Shown in pieces: positions 1 through 7,226 of a stretch of DNA of 7,980 nucleotides. Source of the stretch: a bacterium (GTDB taxonomy: Bacteria > SM23-31 > JAUVVT01); contig JAUWXV010000172.1 in assembly GCA_030616165.1 (NCBI GenBank), positions 1 through 7,980 of the forward strand. The letters are read 5' to 3'. How positions within the stretch are numbered: the stretch's first letter is position 1; the number at the start of each line of letters is the position of its first letter. A model generated the notes under the pieces. That model ran no database searches. It was not told where the DNA came from and worked only from the letters and a program-made list of their open reading frames with translations. Both the position numbers and the translations under genes were made by a program.

Positions 1-29
1 CTCTGTTTGGGAACATAAAGTGCAAAAAA
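1..29. repeat. 29-bp direct repeat, copy A (cut by window edge)
   Basis: These 29 bases are identical to 726-754. In the second copy the sequence starts in the loop of a perfect inverted repeat (arms 716-725 and 731-740). Here the window opens exactly at that loop, so the left arm probably lies just outside. The two copies are 725 bp apart and bracket the small membrane-protein gene. I read them as dispersed palindromic repeats or as the ends of a small mobile unit; the sequence does not decide which. Confidence 0.75.
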
Positions 30-81
30 TCAAAAAACTCAAAAATCGAACCCATGACCTTTCGACCGACTCAATGCGATG

Positions 82-88
82 GTTAGAT
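82..88 (-). other. attC-like box downstream of the membrane-protein gene
   Basis: On the minus strand this heptamer reads ATCTAAC, matching the integron attC box RYYYAAC (GTTRRRY on the other strand). It lies exactly 20 bases past the stop of the 135-residue gene, the same spacing as the GCCTAAC box after hicA. Both continue as CTAACCA. The partner half of an attC would fall in 1-60 or beyond the edge, and I see no clear partner in the window. A seven-base degenerate match is weak alone; the matching spacing is what makes it worth recording. Confidence 0.2.
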
Positions 89-108
89 GTCTATTTGAGA
101 AGCTGTGT

Positions 109-516
109 TCATTCACAAATATGAGCTAGCATCTCAGACGAGAAAAAATGAGCAAGCACCGCCGCAAAGGTGGTTCCGATAGTCAGCAACAGCCACCGCC
201 AACGCAACCAATCGTCACGAAAGCTGGAAAGTTGAACAAAGATATCGACTAAGTAAGCAGCACAATAGCAAACATTGGCAAAGATGGCTAGCACAAATAC
301 CTGCAAGATGTTGTCCCATGCAATGAGCGACTTTGAGCTAGGCAATGATAAAATGAAATGAACAAGCACGACAACTATAAGGACCAAGTTATAGAAGATT
401 CGGCGTGGCTCCCAATAACGCAGGGCTGCCGTCACGAATTCTCCAATACGAGACAAAGAAATTGATTTGTCGGACAAAGAAGATTTATCTACATCATTAG
501 ATTGATCCGAGTTCAT
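109..516 (-). CDS. Conserved small three-helix membrane protein of unknown function
   Basis: The product has 135 residues. A polar N-terminus (about 1-25, rich in Ser and Asp) is followed by three hydrophobic segments near residues 40-58, 70-95 and 107-125. Charged or aromatic patches separate them, notably LRYWEPRRIFYNL before helix 1 and SSFRDDWLRWRW before helix 3. I recall similar hypothetical proteins with the RYWEPRR and CYCAAY motifs, but none with a known function, so none is given. The ATG at 516 is preceded by AAAAGGAG with six bases between GGAG and the start, a strong ribosome binding site. A sigma-70-type promoter lies about 100 bp upstream (621-649) and closely resembles the hicBA promoter. 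It sits between two copies of a 29-bp repeat and looks like an accessory gene. The stop is TGA. Confidence 0.7.
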   Translation of the reverse strand: MNSDQSNDVDKSSLSDKSISLSRIGEFVTAALRYWEPRRIFYNLVLIVVVLVHFILSLPSSKSLIAWDNILQVFVLAIFANVCYCAAYLVDIFVQLSSFRDDWLRWRWLLLTIGTTFAAVLAHFFSSEMLAHICE

Positions 517-579
517 TTAGCACTCCTTTTCGGTTGGTTGTTCTTGATACACCTAACTATTAATTAACTTAACAATTAT

Positions 580-714
580 TCGCTGATTATACATTAGTTA
601 ATGAGTGTTAACTCAATAAAAAAATACCATATTAACCTCTGAAAGTCAAGTAAATTATTTTATTCATTCAGATTAATATTTAATAATAACAAAGAGTTAA
701 GATAATTTTAATCC
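580..714 (-). repeat. Promoter/leader duplication, copy 1
   Basis: This AT-rich stretch upstream of the membrane-protein gene aligns by eye over most of its length with 1453-1588 upstream of hicB. Shared blocks are AACTCAATAA, AAAGTCAAG and TAATAATAACAA, in the same order and nearly the same spacing, and both end in AATCC. Copy 2 differs by a 17-bp insertion containing a palindrome and by small indels. The distance to the start codon is similar in both. The homology therefore covers promoter and 5' leader but not the coding regions. Confidence 0.6.
621..649 (-). promoter_or_regulatory. Sigma-70-type promoter of the 135-aa membrane protein gene
   Basis: The minus strand reads TTGACT (649-644), a 17-bp spacer, then TATTTT (626-621). 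T/A-rich DNA lies upstream. Transcription would start near 613, giving a leader of roughly 95 bases with short inverted repeats (for example GAGT/ACTC around 603-614). The same arrangement recurs before hicB, which supports a functional element. Confidence 0.6.
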
Positions 715-715
715 T

Positions 716-754
716 TGTTCCCAAACTCTGTTTGGGAACATAAAGTGCAAAAAA
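716..754. repeat. Perfect inverted repeat plus 29-bp direct repeat, copy B
   Basis: TGTTCCCAAA (716-725) and TTTGGGAACA (731-740) are perfect 10-bp inverted arms around the loop CTCTG. From the loop to 754 the sequence equals 1-29. I recall similar TTCCCAAA...TTTGGGAA palindromes as dispersed repeats in many bacterial genomes. No T-run follows the hairpin on the minus strand, so it is not a typical terminator. It abuts the end of leader copy 1 and so marks a junction between blocks. Confidence 0.8.
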
Positions 755-913
755 AACTCCGTTTTGAAATTCTCCTTGTAACTATTCACCTTCAAGTGTT
801 ATGTATTTATATTTTTATATTTGATGTTTTTTGAAGTTGCTATTTGATTATATATTCAGAATTAAGCGGGTTCGGATAATTCTCATATAATACAATAAAT
901 AATGTTTGTCCCG
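741..913. other. Non-coding AT-rich spacer
   Basis: I see no supportable gene here on either strand. A 30-codon GTG-started minus-strand frame (about 790-698) runs through the palindrome and is most likely chance. The segment separates the attC-like structure after hicA from the palindrome before the next promoter. Confidence 0.5.
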
Positions 914-1007
914 GTAAAACGAGTGTAAATCACAAAATTTTACCAGTAGCGGTTCTTACTGAAAAAAGCGCCCGCTTGTCGTGGTTCGGTGCATTGACTG
1001 GTTAGGC
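914..1007 (-). other. attC-like imperfect hairpin downstream of hicA (degenerate)
   Basis: Read on the minus strand, the site opens with GCCTAAC (1007-1001; attC box RYYYAAC) and continues CAGTCAATGCACC. About 94 bases on it closes with GTGATTTACACTCGTTTTAC. The arms pair imperfectly (AGT/ACT, AAT/ATT, CAC/GTG, with AAC/GTT at the core), leaving bulged bases, as attC sites do. An inner 5-bp stem forms between 972-976 and 948-952. The closing box is GTTTTAC rather than GTTRRRY, so the site would be degenerate. It starts 20 bases after the hicA stop, where a gene cassette carries its attC. No integrase is present in the window. Confidence 0.3.
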
Positions 1008-1027
1008 AAAATAATAAACAATATATT

Positions 1028-1207
1028 TCATTTGAGACTAAGTTGTTTTCTAATCAATTCACAGAGGCTATTTTTGATTTCTGAATGACGCGGGACTGGT
1101 GCTTTCTTGCCATTGTTAGGATTTGTGTATATATCGTGATTACTGCCACGGCGTTTCAGATAGCAACCTGCTTTCGCTAATTCTCGAATGAAATCGCGTC
1201 GTTTCAT
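1028..1207 (-). CDS. hicA: HicA-type mRNA interferase toxin
   Basis: The product has 59 residues, a usual HicA size. HicA toxins are ribosome-independent RNases with a double-stranded-RNA-binding-like fold and one catalytic histidine. Visible family features are the N-terminal MKRRDFIRELAKAG helix, the motif GSNHDIY (residues 21-27) with the catalytic-type His24, and VPRHSEIKNSL followed by a basic C-terminal helix. The usual GSHH has Asn in its first His position, while the presumed catalytic His is kept. The ATG overlaps the hicB stop by four bases (ATGA, 1207-1204), indicating translational coupling; only a weak purine-rich ribosome binding site lies inside hicB. The order antitoxin-then-toxin is reversed from Escherichia coli hicAB but common elsewhere. 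The stop is TGA. The frame looks intact. Confidence 0.88.
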   Translation of the reverse strand: MKRRDFIRELAKAGCYLKRRGSNHDIYTNPNNGKKAPVPRHSEIKNSLCELIRKQLSLK

Positions 1208-1410
1208 ACTTCAACTTCTAATTCTTTCGTATGAACTTCAGGGTGGGGGACTTTTTCCTCCTCAGATATCATGAGTTGATAGGCATTCCTGATGTTTTCT
1301 TCTAATTCTTGGAGTGTTTCTCCTTGACTGAATACACCCGGAATTTCTTTAAGCCTACCAACATACCAGCCCTCATCTATCCAATACTCAAGCGTAAAAT
1401 GTCTTAGCAT
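1204..1410 (-). CDS. hicB: HicB-family antitoxin (short form)
   Basis: This 68-residue protein has the partial RNase H-like fold signature of HicB antitoxins: a strand FTLEYWIDEGWYVGRLKEIPGV split over residues 5-26, then FSQGETLQELEENIRNAYQLM. HicB binds HicA and blocks its RNase site. Longer HicB proteins add a C-terminal helix-turn-helix or ribbon-helix-helix domain for autoregulation. Here the protein ends shortly after the conserved helix with an acidic tail (EVHTKELEVEV), leaving no room for one. The ATG at 1410 follows AGGAGG (1426-1421) with a 10-base gap. A promoter with TTGACT and TAAGTT lies about 90 bp upstream, and a palindrome falls in the leader. The stop overlaps the hicA start by four bases, forming a two-gene operon. 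Confidence 0.88.
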   Translation of the reverse strand: MLRHFTLEYWIDEGWYVGRLKEIPGVFSQGETLQELEENIRNAYQLMISEEEKVPHPEVHTKELEVEV

Positions 1411-1478
1411 ATTCGCTGTTCCTCCTAATATAAGAACTCAATCATAATTTATTACATATTCATTAGTAAATAATTGGT

Positions 1479-1499
1479 TTATCCGCCTCTGGCGGATAA
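1479..1499. repeat. Perfect 9-bp-arm palindrome in the hicB leader
   Basis: TTATCCGCC (1479-1487) and GGCGGATAA (1491-1499) flank the loop TCT. The GC-rich core 1482-1496 is flanked by TA on both sides, while the matching place in leader copy 1 has a single TA before ACTCAAT. This fits insertion of a small dispersed palindrome at a TA. It lies just after the predicted transcription start, so the hicBA mRNA would begin with a stable hairpin. No U-run follows, so it is unlikely to be a terminator. Confidence 0.75.
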
Positions 1500-1508
1500 C
1501 TCAATAAT

Positions 1509-1537
1509 AACTTACCACATTTACCATCAAAAGTCAA
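1509..1537 (-). promoter_or_regulatory. Sigma-70-type promoter of hicBA
   Basis: The minus strand reads TTGACT (1537-1532), a 17-bp spacer and TAAGTT (1514-1509). It is homologous to the promoter at 621-649, with identical -35 box and spacer length and several shared spacer bases. The predicted start is near 1502, about 90 bases before the hicB ATG. No operator beyond the nearby palindrome is apparent. Confidence 0.6.
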
Positions 1538-1639
1538 GCAAATATATTTAAACTAAAATCTAATAATAACAACAGCATAAGGTAATCCCCCCACTCCCGA
1601 AAATAATCCCATATATCTATGTATCAAATCCCCATTTCA

Positions 1640-4736: not shown

Positions 4737-6620
4737 TTATCGTTTCAAATTATCGATTTGCGCCCTTAAATCTTGTGCATCGGGGTCAAGTTTAAGTGCT
4801 TTTTCAAATTCACTTATCGCCTGTGCTTTGTTACCAATTTTTAAATATAAATTACCCAGCTCAATATAACCCTGGATATTTGAAGGCACAAGAGATAATG
4901 CTTTATTGTACATTGAAATTGCTTCAGGGATGGTTTTATTATCCAATGAAAGCACCCTGCCGAGCATAAAACATACGTTGGGATTATTTGGATTTGCCTG
5001 ATAAACGGTTCGGAATGCCCTTTCCGCTTTATCGTATTCTTTCTTCATCATATATATTATTCCAAGTTCATAGTGAGCACTGACAAAAAAAGGATTAAGT
5101 CTCAAAGCACTTACAAATTTCATTTCTGCTTTCTCGTATTCTTTCTTCATCCTGTATATTATTCCAAGTTCATAGTGAGCACCAACAAACAGAGCATCAA
5201 GTTTTAAAGCAGTTTCAAATTTCATTTCCGCTTTCTCATACTCTTTTCTATTCATGTAAACCATTCCCAGATTCAGGTGAGCACTGGCATGCTCAGGGTC
5301 AAGTTTTATGGCAGTCTCAAATTCCATTTCTGCTTTCTCGTACTCGCCTTTCGATAATAGTATTAATCCCAATCCCTCATAAGCATCAGCATACTCTGGC
5401 TCAAGTTTTAACGCGGTTCCAAATTCCATTTCTGCTTTCTCATTCTCGTTTCTATTCAGGTAAACTTTTCCCAGATTCAGGTGAGCACTAACACTCTCGG
5501 GGTCAAGTTTTAAAGCAGTCTCCAGTTCTATTTGTGCTTCATCGAGTTCGCCTTTCGATAATAGTATCATTCCTAACCAATCATGGGCTAATGCATGCTC
5601 TGGATTGAGTTCTATAGATTTTCTGAATGACTTTTCGGCTTCTTCGTATTTTCCCGACAACATAAAATCGCCGCCTTCTCTTGCATATGAATAATAATCA
5701 AGGAAAGATTCGTGCATTTGTCGTATACCACCCGCTTTTATGTTTGCAAATTCCGGAATATTGGCAGCCCTGTCGGGATCAGTGAAGTTGGACAGCAGGA
5801 CCGGTGGACTGTCATTACCTTCTTCATCGATGTGCGTAAGAAAAAGTTGGGTGTAAGGAGTAAAAACCTTGGATGAAAATACCAGCCACTTGCCGTTTGG
5901 TGACCAACTGTGCCAGGAATTCATTTGATTGGTGTTGCATCTCATCTCTCTGGCAACTCCTCCCTCCGCAGGCATTATATATAGTTTACTGTCGGGCTGA
6001 AGTAGCATAAAACTGTTGGCTTTGCAAAAAACTATCCACTTCCCGTCAGGAGAATATTTTGCAAAATAATTACTCATCCCGTCACCCGATGCACCTGCAA
6101 GAGGCTTAGCCTCCCCACCTTTACCATCATTAAAGGGTATCCTGTATAAATCATACCGAAATTTTTTCCCTCCCGTAAGGTAGTCCTCGCAGTCCTCTTT
6201 TGATAGAACCACTTTATTACCAATTTCTCGCAGGGAATCCGCTTTATTTCTGGCAAAAACAATGTACTTACCATCAGGGCTCCACGCTGGATTGCTCTGT
6301 ACAAATCTCTTGTCATCCGCTCCGGGCAGCGCCTGGAAAGAACCCGTTTCCTTATTATAGTAAGCAAGAATGCCTTTGAGCGGGAAAAATAATTGGGAGT
6401 AGTAAAGGTCCGAAACCGGGACAAATACTGATCTGTCTTTGACTGTACTTACTGTATATTTTCCATCAGGTGATATCTGGGAAAGCAAACCAAAAGTCAA
6501 TTCCTGGTCTTCTCTTTTATAATCAGTCCAGGTAATTATTTTATTTTTAGTGAGCATTATATCTTCGGAAACCCTGGTAATTATATACGAACCCTTATCA
6601 TTAGCGTAATCCACATCCAT
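4737..6620 (-). CDS. PD40 propeller + TPR protein, C-terminal part of a split gene
   Basis: This 627-codon frame continues, in the same frame, the 201-codon frame ending at 6621; only a TGA separates them. Residues 1-10 (MDVDYANDKG) look like the interior of a protein, not a natural start, and no good ribosome binding site precedes the ATG at 6620. PD40/TolB-like propeller blades recur at SPDGKYTVSTVK (50-61), SPDGKYIVFARN (114-125), SPDGKWIVFCK (190-200) and SPNGKWLVFSSK (240-251). A conserved tail follows: PYTQLFLTHIDEEGNDSPP (255-273) and NIPEFANI (287-294). Nine TPR units fill about 309-615, consistent with protein binding. Without the first part this piece lacks the membrane anchor and CxxCH, so it would be cytoplasmic if made by reinitiation. 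Stop TAA. The function of the full-length family is unknown to me. Confidence 0.8.
   Translation of the reverse strand: MDVDYANDKGSYIITRVSEDIMLTKNKIITWTDYKREDQELTFGLLSQISPDGKYTVSTVKDRSVFVPVSDLYYSQLFFPLKGILAYYNKETGSFQALPGADDKRFVQSNPAWSPDGKYIVFARNKADSLREIGNKVVLSKEDCEDYLTGGKKFRYDLYRIPFNDGKGGEAKPLAGASGDGMSNYFAKYSPDGKWIVFCKANSFMLLQPDSKLYIMPAEGGVAREMRCNTNQMNSWHSWSPNGKWLVFSSKVFTPYTQLFLTHIDEEGNDSPPVLLSNFTDPDRAANIPEFANIKAGGIRQMHESFLDYYSYAREGGDFMLSGKYEEAEKSFRKSIELNPEHALAHDWLGMILLSKGELDEAQIELETALKLDPESVSAHLNLGKVYLNRNENEKAEMEFGTALKLEPEYADAYEGLGLILLSKGEYEKAEMEFETAIKLDPEHASAHLNLGMVYMNRKEYEKAEMKFETALKLDALFVGAHYELGIIYRMKKEYEKAEMKFVSALRLNPFFVSAHYELGIIYMMKKEYDKAERAFRTVYQANPNNPNVCFMLGRVLSLDNKTIPEAISMYNKALSLVPSNIQGYIELGNLYLKIGNKAQAISEFEKALKLDPDAQDLRAQIDNLKR
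4776..5696 (-). repeat. Nine tandem TPR units with recent 102- and 204-bp duplications
   Basis: The TPRs cover residues 309-615 of the 627-codon frame. Most units are 34 codons (102 bp); unit 8 has 35. A 20-base match at 5344-5363 recurs at 5548-5567, and the block starting at 5266 recurs at 5470, both 204 bp apart. So a two-TPR unit (LLSKGE type plus NLGxVYxNR type) was duplicated. The 25 bases at 5056-5080 recur exactly at 5158-5182, a 102-bp step duplicating the HYELGIIY type unit. Confidence 0.8.
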
Positions 6621-6623
6621 TCA
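6618..6623 (-). other. In-frame TGA followed directly by ATG splitting the CxxCH-PD40-TPR gene
   Basis: The minus strand reads ...AAT TAT TTA TGA ATG GAT GTG GAT..., so the protein would read NYL-stop-MDVDY. In relatives I recall, the segment reads CGNCHSF-ADG--LGMD, with glycine at the stop. GGA to TGA is one base change (+ strand 6623, C to A). TGA is also the stop of the four other intact genes here, so the code is standard. Nonsense mutation, sequencing error or readthrough/reinitiation remain possible. Confidence 0.8.
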
Positions 6624-7226
6624 TAAATAATTTCCATCAGCAGTAAATGAATGACAATTCCCGCACACCGTCATATTTTCCAGTATCACTGGTGGGGGCT
6701 CATCTGAGGATATATCGCCCAAACGCCACTTTATTTCATCCTTGTGGTCGACCGCATACTCAAACGGAAGAGGAACATCACGATAAAATATTGGTGCACC
6801 AACCTCATCAATCGATGTTTTTATTGAGATAGTCTTCTTCGAGAGGAACCTTTTCACACCAACTATCTTTTTAAAACCCAGAATTGTAACCTTGGCTCTC
6901 TTTTCTAAAGTTCTCTCCTTTGCAGACTCCCAAATATCTCTTTTTGGAGTCCATTCCATTGAGGATGTTTGAACTTCTATTAGTTCATTTGGTTCTTGGA
7001 ATTCAAAACGAAGAATCCAACTATTGGCGCCTGATTTATCATCCCATCGAAAAGTAGGGGACGCAATCTCAGGTGGGAAAAGGGAATCATCAAACGGGTA
7101 GATAATTGATAACTCCTTTAAAAAAGAATCAGGTAGAAAAGGATAAAAAATCCCGTTAAACAAAACAATAATCAGAATAATAAACAACACAATAAATAAA
7201 ATAATAAATTTAATTCTATTCGACAT
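6621..7226 (-). CDS. Membrane-anchored CxxCH protein, N-terminal part of a split PD40-TPR gene
   Basis: The frame has 201 codons. One strongly hydrophobic segment (about residues 6-30) anchors the N-terminus with the rest probably periplasmic. A beta-rich domain follows with FPPEIASPTFRWDD (50-63) and SWILRFEF (69-76). Near the end is VCGNCHSFTADG (187-198), whose CxxCH (Cys188, Cys191, His192) is a c-type haem attachment motif. The frame ends three residues later at TGA and resumes in frame at 6620 as a PD40 propeller plus TPRs; together they make about 829 codons (4737-7226). The ATG at 7226 has AAAAGG eight bases upstream. The frame stays open for about 25 further codons upstream but offers no ATG or GTG, so 7226 is the best start. 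Alone, this product would lack the propeller. Family identity rests on remembered similarity. Confidence 0.75.
   Translation of the reverse strand: MSNRIKFIILFIVLFIILIIVLFNGIFYPFLPDSFLKELSIIYPFDDSLFPPEIASPTFRWDDKSGANSWILRFEFQEPNELIEVQTSSMEWTPKRDIWESAKERTLEKRAKVTILGFKKIVGVKRFLSKKTISIKTSIDEVGAPIFYRDVPLPFEYAVDHKDEIKWRLGDISSDEPPPVILENMTVCGNCHSFTADGNYL

Follow-up and report, generated by a model that had tools for sequence, protein, structure and literature searches.

A repeated leader resembling an integron Pc-attI region stands before accessory genes in a bacterial draft genome

Integrons are described as typically having a single attI site per platform (PMC9024848), which leaves captured genes competing for expression close to a single promoter. 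The same paper notes that, class 1 aside, attI sites are poorly described. Among the closest described arrangements to the one reported here is the sedentary chromosomal integron platform, composed of intI, Pc and attI (V. cholerae attIA; PMC3948777, PMC8191803). The DNA analysed is a stretch of 7,980 nt (the window) that makes up the entire contig C266 of a 3.74-Mb draft genome of 343 contigs, and it contains two copies of a leader. Like the V. cholerae-type platform, the leader family has a promoter shortly upstream of a putative attachment site, a GTTRRRY-type putative insertion point, attC cassettes behind it and, at one copy, what looks like a divergent intI, which here is broken. Unlike that platform, which is present in a single copy and carries a long array, the leader is scattered in ~23 copies, mostly with one or a few genes per site, and no intact integrase was found. 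Clusters of attC sites lacking an integrase (CALIN; IntegronFinder, PMC9024848) resemble the attC cassettes without an adjacent integrase on contigs C233 and C311 and on contigs of the related genome G005, but CALINs are defined without a promoter-attI-like leader, whereas many units here begin with one. Insertions at attG and secondary sites and delta-attI cassettes (PMC12901181, PMC10127599) likewise put cassettes outside a platform at GTT-type points. However, secondary sites have only a very short motif in common, compared to a promoter-carrying leader of ~105 bp here, and delta-attI sites lie behind a gene in place of attC, whereas the leader lies in front of the gene. CALINs and delta-attI cassettes, as well as insertions at attG and secondary sites, have been described before; none has a multicopy promoter-attI region in common. 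A full-text literature search on multiple attI sites in integrons, with subscription papers mostly outside its reach, returned no paper.

Two leader-gene modules in the window

Both modules of the window lie on the minus strand (Table 1). An earlier note had described them as unrelated coding sequences behind homologous promoter and leader DNA. The homology was borne out by 76% identity over 54 nt plus 73% over 41 nt in register and by a single BLAST match of 84 nt (E 3e-7), and the two promoters, TTGACT-17-TATTTT and TTGACT-17-TAAGTT, are both present at the modules claimed. Our leader profile, R2, matched leader 1 at 552-657 (E 1.5e-22), where the consensus matched 552-692, and leader 2 at 1432-1543 (E 3e-7). 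The leader alignment revealed that leader 2 is interrupted by the palindrome TTATCCGCC, inserted at ~1480-1500. The predicted 135-aa membrane protein behind leader 1 belongs to no known family, with no Pfam match and no PADLOC match. Behind leader 2 is a HicBA toxin-antitoxin pair, a HicA domain with a HicB-like antitoxin adjacent.

Table 1. Features of the two modules, in window coordinates.
Feature	Position	Strand	Remarks
Leader 1	551..692	-	promoter and attI-like core; ends GTTAGGT (557-551)
Leader 1 promoter	-35 644-649; -10 621-626	-	TTGACT, 17 nt, TATTTT
135-aa ORF	109..516	-	predicted membrane protein behind leader 1
Heptamer ATCTAAC	82..88	-	candidate; possible attC start, 20 bases past the 135-aa ORF stop
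Inserted stretch with GTTCCCAAACTCTGTTTGGGAAC	716..905		extent approximate; interrupts upstream part of leader 1
Leader 2	1432..1592	-	promoter and diverged attI-like core
Leader 2 promoter	-35 1532-1537; -10 1509-1514	-	TTGACT, 17 nt, TAAGTT
hicB-like antitoxin gene	1204..1410	-	68 aa; UPF0150 and HicB_lk_antitox matches slightly below cut-off; adjoins hicA
hicA toxin gene	1028..1207	-	59 aa; HicA_toxin Pfam match above cut-off, E 1.2e-12
Possible decayed attC of hicBA	914..1007	-	candidate; GCCTAAC (1007-1001) to GTTTTAC (~920-914)

Toxin-antitoxin genes are common integron cargo. The pair resembles a hicBA cassette in having HicA with a HicB-like partner and differs in that no attC could be confirmed. 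The heptamers GCCTAAC (1007-1001) and ATCTAAC (88-82) do begin exactly 20 bases past a stop, as had been noted. By our rough estimate the chance of an RYYYAAC within ~40 nt of a stop is about 5% when the DNA is this AT-rich, which makes the two heptamers suggestive at most. The position of GCCTAAC 3' of hicBA fits an attC, and GGGACAAACA... comes directly after GTTTTAC; the same GGGACAAACA... also stands 3' of a true attC at C172:4935-5005. The attC-like status that the earlier note had given the heptamers found support neither in folding nor in the covariance model described below. The 94-nt hairpin opened by GCCTAAC proved weak, the bottom strand of 905-1015 folding no better than shuffles (z -0.5), and the ATCTAAC site, whose full extent is cut off by the contig end, gave no significant fold. 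With filters off, the attC model scored 5.5 bits at the GCCTAAC site and 5.2 bits at 45-88, and an Rfam scan of the window returned no match. That the hicBA attC is decayed rather than absent is plausible, and ATCTAAC may likewise mark a decayed site.

A REP-like palindrome, GTTCCCAAACTCTGTTTGGGAAC with an A-rich tail, occurs at window 1-29, so that the contig ends in it, and at 716-754, the repeated part being 1-29 and 726-754. It was rejected as a module boundary because it is dispersed in the genome independently of the leader and interrupts the leader's upstream region. Contig C172 holds the uninterrupted version of the 716..905 region, and the window copy is flanked on both sides by a repeated AATTATC. 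Elsewhere in the window, at 4737-7226 (minus strand), an in-frame stop codon apparently splits a PD40/TPR protein into two ORFs that abut, 6621-7226 and 4737-6620.

Leader copies and their 3' boundary

A genome search with window 580-760 returned many more leader copies, together with the separately dispersed REP-like palindrome. In this genome 14 copies were counted by consensus, 21 by deeper scoring and 23 by profile R2, the last count reaching down to C329 (E 1e-5); a match on C340 was discarded as it lies inside a coding sequence. The earlier note had proposed looking for more copies; the genome total is ~23, and the copies stand before many other accessory genes. Six genomes of the phylum were present in the collection searched, all drafts (63-90% complete), and among the relatives G005 has three copies, G002 one and G001 one. 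Searches of plasmids, phages and viral contigs gave no convincing copy. An exact-pattern search of other GTDB genomes, with a pattern that only part of the copies fit, likewise gave none convincing: its 7 matches resembled the leader only in the pattern and in AT-rich surroundings.

The genes behind the leaders differ nearly every time. Among their products are a pentapeptide-repeat protein, a protein with a TIR domain, a trypsin-like protein, HicBA and small membrane proteins; a pair behind a G005 leader reads by eye as HicA-HicB. The majority have no family match, which is usual for genes of integron cassettes. Leader-gene units stand in tandem in the window and on C172, C24, C233 and C208, and five pairs of leaders lie on the same strand within 3.5 kb of each other. 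The copies form subfamilies with differing upstream flanks. On C208 (L079, 394-2199) the leader precedes genes for two proteins that, by eye, look like a B12-binding radical SAM enzyme (472 aa) and a peptide precursor (127 aa). Remnants of IS200/REP-associated transposases, as judged by eye, adjoin several leader loci (L013 ~940-1100, L011 ~6875-6970 and L079 ~2200-2420).

Conservation of the leader extends as far as a GTTRRRY-like point (…AAGTTAATTATTAGTTAGGY) and collapses there. Across 24 aligned copies, each column of the last 35 nt carries 0.75-1.0 bit of information, compared to ~0.1 bit right after GTTAGG. Nine of the 24 junctions fit GTTRRRY in full and most others keep part of it. The promoter motif, TTGAC-17-TA..TT, is directed into the putative insertion point, and the distance from -35 to junction hardly varies among copies that diverge by 10-30%. 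The core occurs without a promoter on C208, C3 and G005:C14; a further promoterless attI-like core lies ~350 nt behind the second leader of C233 (L018, 7170-7230). No consensus fold was obtained for the leader, and its reading as a structured RNA was rejected.

Two pairs of loci have a unit in common behind the leader. C24 and C233 have a common 101-aa gene unit behind diverged leaders, with identity of 73% across the 100 nt that precede the junction, 96.6% across the 176 non-coding nt that follow and 91% in the coding sequence; similarity stops at GGTTAGTCAGAAA, just past the stop codon, with none beyond. G005:C14 and G001:C68, from two genera of two families, have a 623-bp unit in common, with no further common DNA in the flanks compared. 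This unit begins 5 nt after the leader end in G005:C14 and 67 nt after the expected leader end in G001:C68, where the leader core is lost. Since the common units begin at the leader's end, the leader lies outside the unit.

attC sites and integrase remnants

We built an attC covariance model from seven attC-like hairpins that were found downstream of several leader genes. Over the phylum it detected 8 sites in the window's own genome, about a dozen in G005 and 1 in G001, with no site at E 10 in the other three genomes. Folded attC sites stand behind leader-associated genes on C204, C92, C20, C172, G005:C216 and G005:C38, and the C208 site is weaker (18.4 bits). Those of C92 and C172 lie behind leader genes and outside the model's training set. 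A leader is present upstream on the same strand within 3 kb of 4/8 attC sites of the own genome and within 5.5 kb of 6/8, where 0.9% and 1.7% per site are expected. The resulting P of ~5e-7 for 4/8 within 3 kb is partly biased because three own-genome training sites came from behind leaders or from a leader contig. The unbiased subset has a leader at two of its four sites (C92 and C172; the other two lie on C311, truncated by a contig end), for which our own arithmetic gives a few times 1e-4. Eight attC sites of G005 have no leader within 2.6 kb upstream, the internal cassettes of the arrays on C233 and C311 carry none, and many leader units have no recognisable attC. On C172 a leader lies almost directly 3' of an attC.

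On C172 (L010, 5150-5290) and on C329 (L162, behind 2340), the DNA between leader and gene includes a similar stretch, ...GTAAGCGTGCCATC...CAGCTTATC.GCAGTT.CGTT..., which might represent another type of attC that the model misses. An array of cassettes on C311 (L130) has at least two attC sites, and the product of one 385-aa gene there resembles SIR2-type defence proteins by eye. In G005:C156 (L122) a textbook attC stands directly behind a peroxiredoxin-like gene, the leader is absent, and the genes after the attC read by eye as a HigBA pair.

An intI was also looked for. No match to TIGR02249 over cut-off was found in the six incomplete phylum genomes, and an intact intI may be hidden by draft incompleteness (63-90%). 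On C260, a broken frame with RYKHYSPRTEKNYIQWIKDYI lies ~50 bp upstream of a leader and is divergent from it. Its best NCBIfam match is the integron integrase, short and at E 0.0055, and compared to an approximate IntI1 sequence it gave 52% over 21 residues (E 0.06). As read from the sequence, this layout looks like that of the intI, Pc and attI of an integron platform, and the leader looks like Pc-attI because this copy has the intI remnant beside it. The search for intI that the earlier note had proposed gave, in these genomes, a broken IntI N-terminus at C260 and no intact gene. The ATGAATGATAA start seen at C260 also occurs upstream of three other leaders, the two on C24 and the one of G001; no divergent intI start stands beside the remaining leaders. 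C124 has a second IntI-like N-terminal remnant, with no leader. The two full-length tyrosine recombinases scanned as possible IntI are both XerC/XerD-like and were rejected, as were recombinase pseudogene pieces on C22, which has no leader there.

Readings of the leader family

We consider it likely that the leader represents an integron's Pc-attI region, present in many dispersed copies, and that the genes behind it are captured cassettes. The leader would consist of a sigma-70-type promoter and a double-stranded attachment site of ~40 bp ending in G^TTRRRY, in ~23 scattered copies, sometimes two in tandem. Cassettes, each a gene with a folded attC, would be inserted at GTTRRRY and transcribed from the leader promoter, and hicBA and the 135-aa membrane protein gene would be two such captured genes. 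Because intI is missing or broken in this assembly, the sites would be relics or be served by an integrase in trans. Directly observed are the leader copies, their sharp 3' boundary, the common units that start there, attC sites behind leaders and one divergent IntI N-terminus remnant. From the common units we infer integrase recombination at the leader end; the leader promoter is presumably active, and an integrase source and some process that multiplied the leader would have to be supposed. Counting against a Pc-attI region are the absence of an intact intI and the shortness of the IntI remnant, the partial bias in the P of the attC-leader association, the few full GTTRRRY junctions, the many units without attC, the failure of the window heptamers as attC, the leaderless attC sites of G005 and the C172 leader that follows an attC.

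That last arrangement would also be explained by promoter-bearing cassettes, in which the leader is the 5' part and moves with gene and attC, as the earlier note had proposed; the tandem units of the window, C172, C24, C233 and C208, and the similar sequence after the C172 attC and the possible hicBA attC, also fit. However, the leader lies upstream of the GTTRRRY point, in both pairs of loci a common unit stands behind diverged leaders with identity breaking at the leader end, internal cassettes of the C233 and C311 arrays have no leader, and one leader copy adjoins an intI remnant. We regard such cassettes as unlikely: ending at the crossover-like GTTRRRY and lying outside the common unit, the leader does not look like a cassette's 5' portion. 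The earlier proposal seems right in kind, in that the modules appear to belong to an integron-type system, and its alternative of a modular system with coding regions exchanged behind an unchanging promoter is the better half; the attC sites behind several units and the repeated leader are in keeping with this.

The strong promoter motif, the many genes without recognisable attC and the repeats and transposase remnants common in this genome might instead reflect a plain regulon or a repeat scattered through the genome, in which a conserved promoter with its 5' UTR was multiplied along with accessory genes or close to them and no recombination took place at its end. This too appears improbable: conservation peaks towards the 3' end and breaks off at a single point, which is also where units begin, attC sites lie downstream on the same strand and there is no conserved RNA structure. 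Independent cassette insertions at minimal genomic sites of the attG or secondary type, with the similarity of the leaders unrelated, would draw on the use by IntI of secondary sites with a very short motif (PMC10127599), on the mention of attG (PMC12901181) and on the lone G005 attC sites. Such insertions would not share ~105 bp and a promoter at near-fixed spacing in ~23 places, nor adjoin an intI start, and they are very unlikely to account for the family. Chance similarity of two leaders in AT-rich DNA with short heptamers can be practically dismissed, given profile matches down to E 1e-22 and the many copies; the copy number already refutes it.

If the leader is a Pc-attI region, the further possibility arises of a distributed integron, with more than twenty attI-promoter docking sites across one chromosome, loaded independently with cassettes by a trans-acting integrase, and many captured genes expressed at once where a single array would express just its first few; for this we see the case as evenly balanced. 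As part of that reading we suggest that the integrase is now lost or lies outside the assembly. If real, many attI-promoter platforms without a linked integrase would be new, and a genome with ~23 attI-promoter copies would have a different route to expressing many captured genes. The ~24 alignable putative attI sites define a core of 35-40 bp and would be a rare set on which the rule of attI recognition in a little-known phylum could be tested directly.
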